Source: a bacterium (GTDB lineage: Bacteria > Hydrothermota > UBA3073 > JACQXS01 > JAGMCI01). Taken from it: a DNA stretch of 60,714 bases. Below are positions 39,552-60,387 of this stretch, one piece after another. The notes under the pieces are model-generated. The model searched no databases and was not told where the DNA came from. It saw only the letters and a list, made by a program, of their open reading frames with translations. The stretch spans positions 1-60,714 of the forward strand of contig JASEGA010000009.1 of NCBI GenBank assembly GCA_030018315.1, in the 5' to 3' direction. Positions within the stretch are counted from its first letter, which is position 1. The number at the start of each line of letters is the position of its first letter. The translations under genes and the position numbers were made by a program.

Positions 39552-39710
39552 TGCTTTTTTGAATAAATATTTTAGGCACCTTTGATTTTCAACCTCTGAT
39601 TTGGTTTTAGACAATTTTGACCTTGTCATTCTGAACGAAGTGAAGAATCTCATAAATCGGTGTCAATCAAGGTGTTGCAAGTTTTGTAAAGTGAATTATT
39701 CAACAAAGCA
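39552..39710. mobile_element. 159-bp MITE-like element, copy 1
   Basis: The ends are inverted repeats: TGCTTTTTTGAATAA at the left, TTATTCAACAAAGCA at the right (one mismatch). The length is identical to copy 2 (48198-48356), with about four differences by eye. The interior carries the TCATTCTGAACGAAGTGAAG motif also found at 28094. There is no coding capacity. T-rich runs flank both ends. The 39446-39733 gap holds nothing else. Confidence 0.8.
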
Positions 39711-39733
39711 AGTTTTTTTGTCAAAAAAATTTG

Positions 39734-48197: not shown

Positions 48198-48356
48198 TGC
48201 TTTGTTGAATAAATATTTTTGGCACCTTTGATTTTCAACCTCTGACTTGGTTTTAGACAATTTTGACCTTGTCATTCTGAACGAAGTGAAGAATCTCATA
48301 AATTGGTGTCAATCAAGGTGTTGCAAGTTTTGTAAAGTGAATTATTCAACAAAGCA
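48198..48356. mobile_element. 159-bp MITE-like element, copy 2
   Basis: The left end TGCTTTGTTGAATAA and right end TTATTCAACAAAGCA are perfect 15-bp inverted repeats. It is about 97% identical to copy 1 by eye and in the same orientation. It lies just upstream of the lipoprotein promoter region. Confidence 0.85.
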
Positions 48357-48414
48357 AAAAACTTGACAAAATATTAAAGTAATATAAAATTGCTTGTATA
48401 TGAGGAGGTGTAAT

Positions 48415-53260: not shown

Positions 53261-55192
53261 TCATTTTCTCGGTCTTTCCAATAAAGTAATAAACTTTTTT
53301 GCCTTTGGGTGGAATGAATCCAGTCTTAAAGTCTTCCAAAAACTATCGAGAGCATTGTCAATAAGACCAAGTTTATAATTAATAAGACCGGAGAGATAGT
53401 AAAGCTCTGGTTCGTAAGGCAGGTTTTTAAGACATAATTTAGCATACCTTAAAGCATTTTTAAAATTTCCTTCTCTATAATAGAGAAAAGAAACCCTTAA
53501 TATAGAATCGGGATAATTGCTTTTAAGGTAGTTTGTTTTTGCTTTAGAGAGAACTTCCTTCTTTTCCTGAATAAGGCCTAGAAGAAATAGGCGTTCTTTT
53601 CTATTGAGTTCCCTCAATTTATTTATACCATTTGTAAATAGCTCTGCCAGAACCTCTATACCACGGTGCCTTTGATAGCTTTTAAGGAGACTAAACCCCA
53701 TCTTGTACCTGACATTAATATTTGAAGGAGATAAAAACATTGCCTTTTTGTAAAAATCAGATGCTTCTGCAAAGCGGTTGTTCTTAAATAATAGGTTACC
53801 GGTCCTTATGTATGGTTCAACTTTTTGTGGTTCGTCCTTTATTGCTTCTTTATAGTAATCATCAGCGTAGAAAAGGGGACTGTTTCGACGCCTAAATTCA
53901 GGAGAAAGTGATGGTCTGTGTCTCTCAAATAAATTGCCAATGAGAAAAAAAAGTCTTGCAAATGAAAATTCTTTCTCTGTAGTCTTTTTTGCTCTCTCCT
54001 TCACATTGAAGTCCTTTAAGATAAGCCCTTTTAGCCTCATCTCTCAATTCCCTTTCATAGTAGAGATTTCCAAGCGAGATGTATGCGTGGGAATCTTCGG
54101 GCTTCAATTTTATAGCCTTTTTATAGCTTTTTTCTGCTTTGTAAAATTCCCTCAGTTGTGTATATAGTCTACCAAGTAGAATATGAGTATTGTGATTATT
54201 CGGGTTTATTTTGATGTAATTATAAAGAAGCTTCGCAGCTATCGTAAGTGTTGGTTTAGATTCTTGTTCCCACTTCTGGCTGAGCAAAAGCGCAGTATTA
54301 CCGAAGTGGTAGTAGACTCTGTTTTTTCTTTTCTTTTTGGGAGTTTTTTCCACAATAGAGAGCAATTTCTCAGCTCGATGATACATAGTGTGGTACCTTA
54401 TCACTTCTTCATAACCTCGGTTTGCAATCTCTCCACGTTTATCTTCATGAGTTAAATAATATTCTGCAAGCTCTATAAAGTTATTAGGTTTATATGTTAC
54501 TAAATGATATCTGTCCTTGAATAGGTCTAAAAGACCGTTTGTAATGTACTCAGATAAAAGCATCCTACCACAAGCCATAACCTGAAATACTCTAGTATTG
54601 ACACCGTTAGAAAAACTCTCATTTAAACCAATTTTTGACTTACTGGACACTGCTACAGCTTCCTCTGGAGAAATTCTTTTCTCTCCTATATTTGGTTTAT
54701 GCATTACATCAAACCTTCTCTTTAGTTCATTTAATATTGCAATTCTCTTGAGACGAAAACGCCTACTCGTAATTCCAACAAACACAATATCGTAGATTCT
54801 CTCTTCCTTGTACGGCTTATATATCTCAATATCAACACCACGGGGTAACTAATGAGCATTAAATCCCATTTTTAAAAATCTTAAGGCACAATCCTTCTGG
54901 TCTACAAGTGTAAGGTCAAAAGAGTGTGCGTACTCCTTTTGCCAATAAAAATTAATAGGAGTATCTATAGTATACCAGACACTCAGTGCCGATGCCTCAT
55001 GTATATCATATCATATGGAGGAAATGGGAAGCTCATTGAGGTAAAAAGAATAAAATCGGGACTCTCTCCAATACTTCCTAAAACTTCCCTTATTGAAAAA
55101 TCTGCTTGTGTGGTGGGTGTATTTATTACAGTATGACCCATTTTTCTAAGTTCCTTATCAAAATATGGTTTACCTAGGGAAAGGATAAACAT
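53261..55192 (-). pseudogene. Glycosyltransferase (CgeB-like) - TPR protein, broken at three sites
   Basis: Read through, this is one gene of about 640 codons. The start (ATG 55192, 1 nt after the HprK-like stop) gives FILSLGKPYFDKELRKMGHTV. A 5-base tandem duplication (GATATGATAT, about 55004-55015) shifts the frame. The next frame carries SVWYTIDTPINFYWQ and DCALRFLKMGFNAH, a TAG at about 54848 where relatives have Trp, then LPRGVDIEIYKPY and the donor-site region FSNGVNTRVFQVMACGRMLLSEY. TPR repeats follow, with one more single-base shift near 54010, to the end at 53261. It belongs to a RiPP-like cluster and probably decorated its product or a surface target. Confidence 0.75.
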
Positions 55193-55193
55193 C

Positions 55194-56126
55194 TTAAAAT
55201 AGCTCCTCGGTAATTTTTTCTATCCAACCTTTACCTAATTCAATCATATAACACTCTGTTTCTTTCACAAGGTCAAAAATAAAATCAAATCTCTTTCTAT
55301 CATCCGGGTAGAACAGTCTTGTTGAAGAGAAATTCATTTTATCTCCAAATATTCTGCAGAGTGTATCCTTTTTCCCTATGCTCTTGACTTTTAATCCTTG
55401 GCATTTAGAAAAACAAGGTAAGAGTATTTTGTGTAAAATACTCTTACCTAAAGTAGGAAAAACCTCATTTAGTTTTATAGTATAATTCTTGACAAAAGGA
55501 TTCAATTCAGGATAAAGACGCAGGAGCTCGTAATCTGCATGAGATGGCCAATAACATGAGAATAGCTCCCACTTTCCTCTTTCCTTTTTCAATAGTACCA
55601 TATCATCATCTAAAAAACTAAACCCTTTTCTAAGTAGTGAAATACAGAGGGTAGTCTTTCCACTCCCACTAGGTCCTACTAATAGGTATCCACGCCCATC
55701 TCTTGATACTGCCGCAGAATGTAGGGGAATATAACCTCGACAGCCAAGTGAGAATGATATTCCTTGTGAGAGCGCTCTATTGCACAGAAATTGCTTTTCG
55801 CGTGCATTCCTCTTTATATAAACTGTCTCTGTTAATCTATGCTCATCATAGACAATAAACATCTCATCATCCCATTTTTGTAGGTAAATATTCCCGTCTT
55901 TATATGTTACAAAATTGAACAGCTTCTCTGGTGGGCTTGAAGGAAAATGTCTTACACTTGTTTTAGATAAAAGAAACTGTCCCCTTAATTTAGGAAACTT
56001 ATTTGAGTAGAGATATGTAACTACAATACTATCATCTATAGAGCCAAGGATAGGAATATTCAATGAACTGAGTAGTTCTCTATTGTTTAATATTAACTTT
56101 AGATGAGGCTTTTCAATAATAATCAT
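55194..56126 (-). CDS. HPr-kinase-like ATPase
   Basis: 310 residues. The C-terminal half (about 150-300) holds an HprK-like P-loop: HSAAVSRDGRGYLLVGPSGSGKTTLCISLLRKGFSFLDDDMVLL. The N-terminal half is unlike true HprK. Such HprK-related proteins accompany PqqD-like proteins in peptide-modification clusters, including lasso peptides where they phosphorylate the precursor. It overlaps the radical SAM gene upstream by 4 nt, so it is in the same operon. Confidence 0.78.
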   Translation of the reverse strand: MIIIEKPHLKLILNNRELLSSLNIPILGSIDDSIVVTYLYSNKFPKLRGQFLLSKTSVRHFPSSPPEKLFNFVTYKDGNIYLQKWDDEMFIVYDEHRLTETVYIKRNAREKQFLCNRALSQGISFSLGCRGYIPLHSAAVSRDGRGYLLVGPSGSGKTTLCISLLRKGFSFLDDDMVLLKKERGKWELFSCYWPSHADYELLRLYPELNPFVKNYTIKLNEVFPTLGKSILHKILLPCFSKCQGLKVKSIGKKDTLCRIFGDKMNFSSTRLFYPDDRKRFDFIFDLVKETECYMIELGKGWIEKITEELF

Positions 56127-57130
56127 GTCTTCATACTTTTTATAACAGCCTCATCCTCAAGCTTTCTAAACTCTTGAGTGAACTTACAGAAAGTTTTAGG
56201 TGCTCTACAGTAATCCCTGTTCTCTATATAAGCCATGGCAGGACACCTTGTACAGAATTTTAAGTATTTACAAGAACGACAATCTATTAAGTCATTAAGA
56301 GTCAAATTTCTAAGTCTTAAAAATACCTCTGAGTAATTCCATATCTCACCAAGCGATTTTTCATAGATGTTACCTGCCTCCAGTGGAAAGTTAGGACAGG
56401 GAAGGACTCGTCCATCTGGACAAATAGTACATCCTGTAACACCAGCAGAACATAGCATGCCATAGTTATAATACTTGAGGGGTTCTATAGAGAACGTTTC
56501 TACAAACTTTATATTAGGATTTTTGGCAATCTGATATATGTCTGAAGTCGGAATCTGGTACTCTATCGGGCTCATGTCGTAATTTCTTTTCCCACTTATA
56601 ATGGCAGCGAATATTAGCTTGAGATATGGCATTCCGTTGAACATACTTCTTACTTTAGGTACTTCGTGGTAGTTGATTTTTGTTATTGGAAACTTTACTG
56701 TAGTTTTTACACCCCTGCTTGAAAGATTTTGTATACCAGCCATTACTTTTGAAAATGCACGTACACCTGTAAAACTTACATAAGTATCGTCTGATGCGCC
56801 GTAAAGGGTTAACTCCACACCGTATACATTAAGCTGTGCAAGTCTACCTGCAATATCATCTGTAATTAGTGTACCATTTGTACCGAGACGGACTGCAAAC
56901 CCCCTATTTCTTGCTTCCTCTATAATATCAAGGCAGTCACTTCTCATAAAGGGCTCACCACCCGATATTTTAAGAAAAAGGGTGCCAAGCTCAGCTGCCT
57001 CATCCATGAGTTTAATAAGGCGTGCTTTCTTTAATACACCTCTATAGTTTTCAAGAAAACAGTAACGACACCTTAAATTACAGTTTTGAGTTACTTCTAT
57101 TAAAAGCCTTATGAGAGGGTATCTCTTCAT
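56123..57130 (-). CDS. Radical SAM/SPASM peptide-modifying enzyme (second)
   Basis: 335 residues: EVTQNCNLRCRYC (C-x3-C-x2-C cluster site), LKISGGEPFMRSDCLDII, TNGTLITDDIAGRL, then a SPASM region with CSAGVTGCTICPDGRVLPCPNFP...GNIYEKSLGEIW...CRSCKYLKFCTRCPAMAY that should bind auxiliary iron-sulfur clusters. SPASM enzymes form thioether or C-C cross-links in ribosomal peptides. It overlaps the PqqD-like gene upstream by 4 nt. It is a paralogue of 57443-58411. Confidence 0.9.
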   Translation of the reverse strand: MKRYPLIRLLIEVTQNCNLRCRYCFLENYRGVLKKARLIKLMDEAAELGTLFLKISGGEPFMRSDCLDIIEEARNRGFAVRLGTNGTLITDDIAGRLAQLNVYGVELTLYGASDDTYVSFTGVRAFSKVMAGIQNLSSRGVKTTVKFPITKINYHEVPKVRSMFNGMPYLKLIFAAIISGKRNYDMSPIEYQIPTSDIYQIAKNPNIKFVETFSIEPLKYYNYGMLCSAGVTGCTICPDGRVLPCPNFPLEAGNIYEKSLGEIWNYSEVFLRLRNLTLNDLIDCRSCKYLKFCTRCPAMAYIENRDYCRAPKTFCKFTQEFRKLEDEAVIKSMKT

Positions 57131-57456
57131 ACTTGCGAAACCAAGCCTTCTTGTAACAAATTAGTCACAAACTCAAGTACATCTGCCTTTACATCAACAC
57201 TCTTATTCTGAGGGATGGCACAATCTCTCTTTATTACATCTACAACCGTACTTATAGATTTATCGCCATCAAATTGTTTCCAGATATAACTTGCTATTTT
57301 ATTAAGGGTATAAAATTTGCCCGAAGGTATATGAAGGAGAAGAATCTCACCCTCAATTTCTCGCCAAGCAAGCTCTTCTTCTTTCCTTTTGACCTTCGTC
57401 CCGAGCTCAGGTCGAGGGACTTTATTTGAAATAGAGCATTGTTTATCGTTCTCCAT
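57127..57456 (-). CDS. PqqD-family RiPP recognition protein
   Basis: 109 residues. The PqqD-like winged helix-turn-helix starts near residue 25 (LAWREIEGEILLLHIPSGKFYTLNKIASYIWKQFDGDKSISTVVDVIKRD) and ends DVLEFVTNLLQEGLVSQV. Such proteins bind the leader of a precursor peptide and present it to the radical SAM enzyme. It overlaps both flanking radical SAM genes. Confidence 0.85.
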   Translation of the reverse strand: MENDKQCSISNKVPRPELGTKVKRKEEELAWREIEGEILLLHIPSGKFYTLNKIASYIWKQFDGDKSISTVVDVIKRDCAIPQNKSVDVKADVLEFVTNLLQEGLVSQV

Positions 57457-58411
57457 AATATCCCTTTACTATTTTACATGTAAAGTCGGGTCTCCTAAAC
57501 ATATTGCCATGCGTGAAGTAAGCAACACTGCAGCATCTCCTACATTTCCAAAAGAATTTACAGCCATAGCAGTCTACGAAATCCTTTGGTGTAGCATTTC
57601 TTATTTTAAGAAGAACATCGGAGTTATTCCATATCTCATCAAAAGACTCGTTATAGATATTACCCGCAGAAAGGGGAAAGAACTGGCATGGGTAAACATC
57701 GCCATTAACTGCAATATAACAGCCATGGATTGCATGGTAACAATTTAACCCTTTAGGATTATGCCTACGTTCATGTGCGATAAACCTATTTGAAGGATAG
57801 CCCATTTTTAGCAATTCAATTATCTTACTGGGTTCCAAAGAACAAGCTGCAGGAGGGCGACTTCCGTCATGCCTATTAAACATGAGAGGATTAAAATTTA
57901 CATTTGTTAAAGGAAATCTACTAAGAATTTGGACCATTTTATCCATGTCTTGAACATTATTATTAGTTATTGGGATATTCACTGTGACATGACAATTATT
58001 TTCAAATAATGTCTCAAGTGATTTAATCGCACACACATATCCATCAGCTACACCTGTCACTGCTTCATAAGTTGAGGCGGATGCACCGTAGAAGCTTAGA
58101 ACATAGGAAAGAACACTAAGTTTCTTCAACTCCTTAACAATTGAGTTTGTAATTAATGAACCGTTTGAGTATACGGTTACATATAACCCTCTTTTACGTG
58201 CTTCTGAGACTATCTTTAAGAAATCTGGATAAAGAAAAGGCTCTCCCCCTGTAAGACGGATGTAGAGACCTTTTAGACGCGTGAATTCATCAAATATATC
58301 TACTATTTTAATGAATGGTATATCTAAGTTAAAGTCTGTGATGTAACAATGCTTACATCTAAAATTACAGTGGCTAGTTATCGCTATCTCGAGAATGTTT
58401 ATAATAGCCAT
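57443..58411 (-). CDS. Radical SAM/SPASM peptide-modifying enzyme (first)
   Basis: 322 residues: EIAITSHCNFRCKHCYITDF (cluster site), IRLTGGEPFLYPDFLKIV, YSNGSLITNSIV, and a SPASM region CYHAIHGCYIAVNGDVYPCQFFPLSAGNIYNESFDEIWNN...CYGCKFFWKCRRCCS. It directly follows the precursor-peptide gene (73-nt gap). A Shine-Dalgarno-like AAGGAT precedes the ATG. Having two SPASM enzymes suggests two different modifications or a sequential one. Confidence 0.9.
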   Translation of the reverse strand: MAIINILEIAITSHCNFRCKHCYITDFNLDIPFIKIVDIFDEFTRLKGLYIRLTGGEPFLYPDFLKIVSEARKRGLYVTVYSNGSLITNSIVKELKKLSVLSYVLSFYGASASTYEAVTGVADGYVCAIKSLETLFENNCHVTVNIPITNNNVQDMDKMVQILSRFPLTNVNFNPLMFNRHDGSRPPAACSLEPSKIIELLKMGYPSNRFIAHERRHNPKGLNCYHAIHGCYIAVNGDVYPCQFFPLSAGNIYNESFDEIWNNSDVLLKIRNATPKDFVDCYGCKFFWKCRRCCSVAYFTHGNMFRRPDFTCKIVKGYYGER

Positions 58412-58484
58412 TCTATCCTTACAGCTAACTTGTTAGGCTTCCGTATAAATTATAAAGAGTCTATAAAAATAACACTCCGTAAGA

Positions 58485-58682
58485 CTATTCAGCTTCAGGT
58501 GGACAGCCTGGTGGAGAAATTTTGCATGCCATATAATCTAACTTATAATTATTATAATTATAATAATAGGAATTGGCAAAAGCATCTTTCTGGTCATCGT
58601 ATTTGGTGATCAGTGGTTTCTCATATTTGAGCTTTTTTCGCATCACTTTTTCTCCCTTTCCACCTTTTAAACTTTTTCCCAT
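58485..58682 (-). CDS. Candidate RiPP precursor peptide, Tyr-rich
   Basis: 65 residues with a strong Shine-Dalgarno site (AAGGAGGGG) before ATG 58682; a second ATG at 58643 is possible. A basic leader (residues 1-19) is followed by Y20-E-K-P23-L-I25, which resembles the YxxP-x-L motif read by PqqD-type recognition domains of lasso systems. The presumed core holds six tyrosines (39, 40, 41, 43, 46, 50) in an Asn/Tyr-rich run, then C53 and C60 in a Pro-Gly-rich tail ending CPPEAE. It lies first in a run of radical SAM, PqqD-like, radical SAM, HprK-like and glycosyltransferase genes on one strand. No relatives are known to me. Confidence 0.72.
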   Translation of the reverse strand: MGKSLKGGKGEKVMRKKLKYEKPLITKYDDQKDAFANSYYYNYNNYKLDYMACKISPPGCPPEAE

Positions 58683-58911: not shown

Positions 58912-60387
58912 TTAATAAATCTCTGGGAAACCTACTTCTAAATGCTCCCACACTTTTAGAGCCTTCAATAGTTGTATTTCCTTCACCATATTATTGATGC
59001 TTTCTTTTGTTTTTGAATTTATGTTATTGAGAAAATATTTAAAGACATTGCCGCTATTCATATTTTTAATAAATAAATTCTGCAAACTCTTTATTGCCAA
59101 TGAACTCAGCCCTTTTACCCGATATACAAGTTCTTTTCTTATAAAAAGTTTCTTGTTAGGATTTAATATAACTTCTTTACCAGCTTCAGTAAAACTAATA
59201 TTCTCTGTTAATATTGGCCTAAAATAACTTATGATTAAACTATATTTATCGAAATTAATATACTTTAAGAGAGATGGATGGAAAAAAAGCTCTGTCTTGG
59301 TATCATTTAATGACCACAAATTATTCGTACATTTATTCTTTTCTATGATTTTAACAATCCTTTTTATATTTGTTGGTGAATTTTGAATTGATAAACTCCT
59401 TATATATCCCGCACTCGTTATTTTTTCAAAATTTTCTCTAATTAAAGATGCCGCTTGTTTCCTATAGCCTCTTTGATGAAACTGGGCTTTATAAGCACTC
59501 GAACAATAGTTAATTGGTAGCCTTATTTTATTATCCAGAGCGTATCTTATAAGCTTTAGTGCAGTCATTTCTGATTCAAAAATAGGTACAGTAGAATAAT
59601 GAAGAAAGGTATAGTTTCGATCAATATAATTCTTATAATTATACTTAGTAGTAAGTAATTGATGTAAGTTTAAATAATTAACACCAATCCTCTGCATTTG
59701 GACTAAACTTTTTTTTAGTATTTCATAATCCTCTGGGATAGCGGGAATTTCAACTGTAACTGTATTTATAGTATTAACAGCTAATTCTATACAGTGCAAA
59801 TCATAATCTCTGGCACTAATATTGAATCTAATCTCATCAAGCCCAGCTTCTTTCAATCTTTTAGACTTATCTCTATCAATTAAATCACCATTTGTATATA
59901 TCCAGAGATAAATCTCTTTTCCAAATCTTTCTCTGATTTTCTTTATATATAACAATAATTTTTCAAAAACTAGCATGCACTCACCACCGCTAAAGCCGAC
60001 ACCTTTAAAATCAAACCTCTCTAAATAATCAAGATAATCTTTGAGAGTATTAAATACAATACCCTCCCCCTCCGGCACTTTTGGGGGACGTTCTTTTTTT
60101 ATCTTTCGATCTTGGGGACAAAAAAAACAATTAGCTGTACATAGACCATTTATAAACATACAGGACCATCTCCCTTGTCCGCATATTAAACACCCTGGAG
60201 ACAATCTGCCAGTATATATCTTGTTCTTCATAGAACTATAATTGACTTCATTAGACAGAGAGCTCAATAACTTATCTCTTTCTTTATTTGCCTGTATAGC
60301 TTCTTTTTTTGTTAACCACTTTAGCTCTGAATAAGCCCACCCGATATATCGTTCAATACTACTCATATTTATCTCTTTGAGCTCCAT
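58912..60387 (-). CDS. Radical SAM protein, COG2108-like (PFL-activase related)
   Basis: 491 residues. After a Cys-rich entry (GCLICGQGRWSCMFINGLC) comes the cluster motif C-T-A-N-C-F-F-C (C-x3-C-x2-C), then GVGFSGGECMLVFEKLLLYI, WIYTNGDLIDRDKSKRL and DEIRFNISARDYD. The last 200 residues are helical with no recognised fold. This resembles a family distantly related to pyruvate formate-lyase activase with unknown substrate. A Shine-Dalgarno site (AAAGGTGAAGG) precedes ATG 60387. It lies upstream of the RiPP cluster on the same strand; whether it is part of it is open. Confidence 0.75.
   Translation of the reverse strand: MELKEINMSSIERYIGWAYSELKWLTKKEAIQANKERDKLLSSLSNEVNYSSMKNKIYTGRLSPGCLICGQGRWSCMFINGLCTANCFFCPQDRKIKKERPPKVPEGEGIVFNTLKDYLDYLERFDFKGVGFSGGECMLVFEKLLLYIKKIRERFGKEIYLWIYTNGDLIDRDKSKRLKEAGLDEIRFNISARDYDLHCIELAVNTINTVTVEIPAIPEDYEILKKSLVQMQRIGVNYLNLHQLLTTKYNYKNYIDRNYTFLHYSTVPIFESEMTALKLIRYALDNKIRLPINYCSSAYKAQFHQRGYRKQAASLIRENFEKITSAGYIRSLSIQNSPTNIKRIVKIIEKNKCTNNLWSLNDTKTELFFHPSLLKYINFDKYSLIISYFRPILTENISFTEAGKEVILNPNKKLFIRKELVYRVKGLSSLAIKSLQNLFIKNMNSGNVFKYFLNNINSKTKESINNMVKEIQLLKALKVWEHLEVGFPEIY

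Follow-up and report, generated by a model that had tools for sequence, protein, structure and literature searches.

A candidate RiPP locus in a Hydrothermota bacterium combines a YxxP-leader precursor, two radical SAM/SPASM enzymes, a PqqD-type protein and an HprK-like kinase

What product could come from a gene run that sets two radical enzymes and a kinase beside one small open reading frame (ORF)? We addressed this question for a minus-strand locus in a 60,714-nucleotide stretch of DNA from a bacterium of the Hydrothermota (assembly GCA_030018315.1, contig JASEGA010000009.1, positions 1 to 60,714; hereafter, the window). An original prediction had described positions 53261 to 58682 as a new cluster resembling those for ribosomally synthesized and post-translationally modified peptides (RiPPs). 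We find that it is very probably a RiPP locus guided by a RiPP recognition element (RRE). Our full reading, to which we give a probability of roughly 0.7, is that its YxxP-leader precursor would be cross-linked by radical S-adenosylmethionine (SAM) enzymes, phosphorylated by the kinase and freed of its leader in trans. The features of the locus are as follows.

58485..58682, minus strand: precursor peptide of 65 residues, with leader Y20-x-x-P23 and C53 and C60 in the C-terminal core (A-C-K-I-S-P-P-G-C-P-P-E)
57443..58411, minus strand: radical SAM/SPASM enzyme 1 (SPASM1), with CNFRCKHC and intact CX12GX4C and CX2CX5CX2C SPASM cysteines
57127..57456, minus strand: PqqD-type RRE, a leader-binding protein; closest solved structures are lasso-peptide RREs (TbiB1, 5v1u)
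56123..57130, minus strand: radical SAM/SPASM enzyme 2 (SPASM2), with CNLRCRYC and intact SPASM cysteines
55194..56126, minus strand: HprK-like kinase, a probable precursor-peptide kinase, with H136-x14-G-xx-G-x-GKT-x15-DD
53261..55192, minus strand: broken glycosyltransferase (Glyco_trans_1_2)-TPR gene, probably a pseudogene, with two frame changes and one in-frame stop

An intact precursor gene heads a compact gene run

The first five of these ORFs are intact and tightly packed, in the order precursor, SPASM1, PqqD-type protein, SPASM2 and kinase, and the last four of them overlap by 4 to 14 bases (57456/57443, 57130/57127 and 56126/56123). The coordinates, with the domain and motif matches given below, thus bear out the predicted series of overlapping genes on one strand. 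An AGGAGG ribosome site lies just upstream of the precursor ORF, which reads as had been proposed: a Y-x-x-P-L-I leader (Y20-E-K-P23-L-I) whose YxxP motif is of the lasso/PQQ type, a Tyr/Asn-rich stretch and two cysteines (C53 and C60). Such an intact precursor beside an RRE and a SPASM pair supports assignment to the RiPPs, as do the conserved small ORFs of related clusters.

A sister cluster separates conserved from variable parts of the precursor

On contig C35 of the same genome, a sister cluster carries SPASM1, PqqD, SPASM2 and HprK genes in the window order, with two tandem 60-residue precursors ahead of them. Window and C35 proteins are 57% identical for SPASM1, 63% for SPASM2 and 59% for the kinase, and the C35 SPASM enzymes retain their Fe-S cysteines. 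A search of 60 relatives at E 1e-50 found no close homologues beyond this genome, and a genome-contig scan gave no match above 37% identity. With a precursor as query, a genome search returned exactly three precursors, that of the window and the C35 pair. Consensus promoters ahead of the precursor occur at about chance level in the window and above chance at the sister locus, and were not used as support.

All three precursors have an identical KKLKYEKP within the leader KKLKYEKPxxTKY, and all three end in C-x6-C-P-P-E followed by two or three residues. A conserved leader joined to a fast-changing core is the usual evolution of RiPP precursors. Between the tandem C35 precursors, 10 codons differ and 9 of these alter the amino acid, with no difference at the Cys pair or the PSPCPPE stretch; since these changes lie mostly in the core, they fit the usual diversifying-core pattern.

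This comparison bears on the predicted cross-link at Tyr or Cys. Tyr cross-linking or modification, of PqqE or mycofactocin-like chemistry, would find its substrate in YYYNYNNYKLDY of the window precursor and in STSYYDYYNL of a precursor on contig C38. However, the Tyr-rich stretch is absent from both sister precursors and is encoded by AT-rich near-repeats, and conservation in the core is limited to Cys and Pro positions. Tyr was rejected as a conserved core feature on the basis of the sister precursors, and we consider Tyr chemistry unlikely. Because those precursors lack the Tyr stretch yet have both Cys, Cys appears the likelier modification site; the Tyr half of the prediction is weakened and the Cys half stands.

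The SPASM enzymes form a lineage distinct from ScmE and ScmF

In both SPASM1 and SPASM2, the Radical_SAM and SPASM domains exceed their Pfam cut-offs, and the radical SAM CX3CX2C motif is present along with the SPASM motifs CX12GX4C and CX2CX5CX2C. Among solved structures, SPASM1 is nearest to SkfB, at weak sequence similarity. The 25 best family matches of SPASM1 and of SPASM2 include no sulfatase-maturase model, which sets the pair apart from anaerobic sulfatase maturases, as the RiPP proposal supposed.

In a SPASM tree of 59 rows, the window and C35 pairs form one group (support 100/98), nested in an 18-row clade (98/93) with enzymes from PqqD/HprK loci of several phyla. SPASM1 and SPASM2 are mutual nearest kin, with separate pairs at other loci, suggesting a duplication within this lineage as the origin of the pair. 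ScmE and ScmF fall into two clades of their own, both outside the 18-row clade, so that the combination of PqqD, HprK and SPASM genes is found with more than one SPASM lineage.

ScmE and ScmF belong to SynChlorMet, a named but uncharacterised cassette (NCBIfam TIGR04248-TIGR04251; ScmC/D/E/F), and the window cluster could be an ordinary member of it: the gene kinds are the same, and all four models match below threshold. The scores fall far short of every cut-off, however, at 107 of 400 bits for ScmE, at best 86 of 400 for ScmF, 36 of 100 for ScmD and 32 of 125 for ScmC, whereas ScmE/ScmF reach 580-640 bits in the true cassettes L030 and L035. Three tandem YxxP precursors are likewise found in the true cassette L035, but precursor type and gene order are unlike those of the window. 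Strict membership was rejected on cut-offs and the SPASM tree, and ordinary membership seems to us very unlikely. The L035 precursors, on Nitrospirae contig JACRPZ010000083.1 (L035:8119-9011, plus strand), are three Cys-rich ORFs with YQKPE[L/I] leaders lying between ScmF and ScmC, and are candidate SynChlorMet precursors.

The RRE and the kinase resemble those of lasso-peptide pathways

The PqqD-type protein matches PF05402 at 50.4 bits (cut-off 23.4), and lasso-peptide RREs are its closest solved relatives (TbiB1, 5v1u; E 9e-5). RREs of this kind bind leaders that carry a YxxP motif (PMC12710340, PMC13381572).

The kinase gives weak family matches, to Hpr_kinase_C at E 8e-6, under the Pfam cut-off, and to TIGR04352 at E 1e-14, under that model's own cut-off. 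The spacing of its motif is identical to that in BsfK, a lasso precursor Ser kinase whose stimulation by an RRE has been demonstrated (PMC10368454). The predicted model matches the HprK/PEPCK fold and is confident only from about residue 125, fold support coming from its P-loop and C-terminal parts only. Five HprK-like kinases are encoded in the genome, each of them at a locus that also has PqqD genes and SPASM enzymes. In published work, Ser residues of precursors with YxxP leaders are phosphorylated by HprK-like kinases (PMC10368454, PMC13381572). The predicted phosphorylation of the precursor is thus supported by the BsfK-identical spacing and by the genomic setting of these kinases, and we judge it likely.

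A sixth PqqD-type gene (L118:2822-3127, minus strand) lies about 9 kb from a related cluster on contig C1, and no SPASM or kinase gene was detected in the 8 kb examined around it.

Related clusters recur within and beyond the phylum

Similar PqqD/SPASM/HprK sets occur in the phylum at L067, L068 and L113-L115, and a separate search route recovered similar sets in Thermodesulfobacteriota, Bacillota, Nitrospirota and other phyla. An independent, kinase-seeded search added further PqqD-SPASM-YxxP-HprK sets within the phylum. Next to most related clusters is a small ORF on the same strand in which a Cys follows [YW]xxP. ORFs with [YW]xxPx[hydrophobic] and then Cys were found near related enzymes on the same strand in 15 of 84 cases and on the opposite strand in 2 of 87 (Fisher p = 5e-4, somewhat optimistic because the 15 include within-locus repeats, two at L009 and three at L035). 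The small ORF beside the enzymes is therefore conserved in related clusters, and the prediction's concern that none would be found there does not hold.

Several sister clusters also encode a SipW-like S24/S26 peptidase and an NTP_transf_5 protein, and an ABC transporter is present among them. In one, L113:2910-3806 (plus strand), SipW-like peptidase and NTP_transf_5 are joined in one ORF right behind the HprK-like kinase, linking the two functions. The cluster on contig C1 of the window's genome (L012:998-11154) has three SPASM genes, PqqD, an HprK-like kinase and a multi-Cys YTEPAV precursor, together with a SipW-like peptidase, NTP_transf_5 and a UPF0489-TPR protein. None of a SipW-like peptidase, an NTP transferase or an MsbA-like transporter is among the ORFs of 53-60 kb in the window. 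The prediction that no protease is present is thus right for the locus itself; the genome has two SipW-like peptidases, on contigs C1 and C29, one of them in another such cluster.

With RRE, HprK-like kinase and, in sister clusters, SipW-like peptidase, NTP_transf_5 and ABC transporter, these loci approach the core set of the linear polyphosphorylated peptides (LPP; PMC13381572). The product might then be chiefly a linear, (poly)phosphorylated peptide of the LPP or paeninodin type, with the SPASM pair contributing a minor change and no defining cross-link. We think this improbable: SPASM genes are found in nearly every related cluster, often two or three of them, whereas radical enzymes go unmentioned in the LPP paper; the window leader YEKPLITKYDDQKDAF agrees with the LPP leader consensus at YxxP only; and the conserved core Cys suit radical thioether chemistry.

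Flanking genes and repeats

The TPR-glycosyltransferase predicted as closing gene does not hold up as one gene. The region 55192-53261 starts 1 base past the kinase stop; its coding then shifts to a second frame, meets an in-frame stop there and returns to the first. It is probably a pseudogene and not a working member of the cluster, although the breaks may be a sequencing fault. No glycosyltransferase lies behind the kinase of the C35 sister cluster. With the downstream gene broken and no copy in the sister cluster, the predicted glycosylation is without support, and we rejected it.

A broken gene beside the kinase, with no adjoining peptidase or exporter, could also mean that the window cluster is decaying and inactive, and that only its C35 sister functions. 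We give this little credence: the reading frames of the precursor and the four enzymes are uninterrupted, with catalytic motifs intact, and the sister cluster likewise has no glycosyltransferase behind its kinase.

Upstream of the precursor lies a gene for a 491-residue radical SAM protein without a SPASM domain (CTANCFFC motif; 58912-60387, minus strand). It was excluded from the cluster as it has no counterpart at the sister cluster and is no more than marginally similar to the radical SAM protein without SPASM domain that cluster L114 encodes. Elsewhere in the window, an interspersed repeat of about 160 bases occurs at 39552-39711 and 48198-48357, 97.5% identical. Further copies lie on contig C1 (L118:1651-1810) and where contigs C35 and C38 break off; the repeat is probably a mobile or structured element at which the assembly breaks.

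Discussion

In the pathway that we propose, the RRE would bind Y20-x-x-P23 and pass the precursor to the SPASM pair, which would cross-link the core via 5'-deoxyadenosyl radicals, most likely forming thioethers from C53 and/or C60; we lean towards Cys thioethers in the product. The RRE would also stimulate the kinase, which would phosphorylate Ser/Thr of the core, with S56, between the two Cys, as first candidate. The leader would then be cleaved by a SipW-like peptidase encoded on contig C1 or C29, as in LPP clusters, where such a peptidase takes off the leader (PMC13381572). The glycosyltransferase, probably dead, would play no role.

Several points weigh against this pathway. The best family models of the SPASM enzymes (AhbD, NirJ2, WgkB, mycofactocin and ScmE/F) span different reactions and all match below cut-offs, and sequence alone cannot tell the chemistry of these enzymes. 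Beyond its P-loop region the kinase shows weak homology only, and model confidence is low over residues 1-119. Two enzyme loci, L037 and the cut-off L024, had no precursor that we could find. Since the cluster encodes neither a peptidase nor an exporter and the gene downstream has decayed, the locus could be losing function.

A broader view, which we hold at slightly better than even odds, is that PqqD/SPASM/HprK clusters whose precursors have a [Y/W]xxP leader and a Cys core, and which in many cases add a SipW-like peptidase and a nucleotidyltransferase, make up one undescribed multi-phylum RiPP class. This class would couple radical cross-linking with phosphorylation and bridge lasso peptides and LPP to radical SAM peptides, the window and C35 clusters being a lineage-specific branch whose SPASM pair is a product of duplication. 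If so, a single short leader motif and a single RRE would work with two kinds of enzyme, a radical cross-linking pair and a peptide kinase, an arrangement of which we found no characterised example in the literature searched. It would also supply candidate precursors for SynChlorMet, suggest an RRE-kinase-SipW-nucleotidyltransferase module common to otherwise different RiPPs, and make the window cluster a small, testable five-gene set. Five such clusters in one genome are, moreover, a candidate for studying how RRE cross-talk is avoided.

The cluster had been called new, which holds only in part, as the SynChlorMet cassette in NCBIfam already has the same gene kinds. The literature search found no paper naming SynChlorMet or ScmC/E/F, and no description of an HprK plus radical SAM RiPP cluster; most subscription papers and preprints were outside its coverage, so that absence is unproven. 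On the sequence comparisons, the window appears to fall outside both SynChlorMet and LPP, though its gene kinds and modules are already known.

Four systems invite direct comparison. SynChlorMet, like the window, combines HprK-like, PqqD-like and two SPASM proteins; the window lies 3-5 fold under its cut-offs, has SPASM enzymes of another clade and is ordered precursor-SPASM1-PqqD-SPASM2-HprK, as against PqqD-ScmE-ScmF-precursors-ScmC. With LPP (PMC13381572, 2026), the window shares a discrete RRE, an HprK-like kinase and a YxxP leader; the further overlap in SipW-like peptidase, NTP_transf_5 and ABC transporter is confined to the sister clusters. Radical SAM enzymes, of which the window has two, go unnamed in the LPP paper, and the LPP leader, YxxPxVLxHQxIxFETxxS, is longer and unmatched by the window past YxxP. 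The paeninodin-like/BsfK lasso peptides (PMC10368454) resemble the window in their PqqD-like B1 RRE, YxxP leader and HprK-like kinase with identical motif spacing. They differ in that the window has SPASM enzymes in place of macrolactam cyclase and B2 peptidase, for neither of which was there an ORF among the protein families examined in 53-60.7 kb. Finally, the sactipeptide and ranthipeptide synthases SkfB, AlbA and PapB share radical SAM and SPASM domains and a Cys-containing core with the window system; similarity to them is weak, the thioether in the window is inferred only, and what sets the window apart is its separate RRE protein and its kinase.

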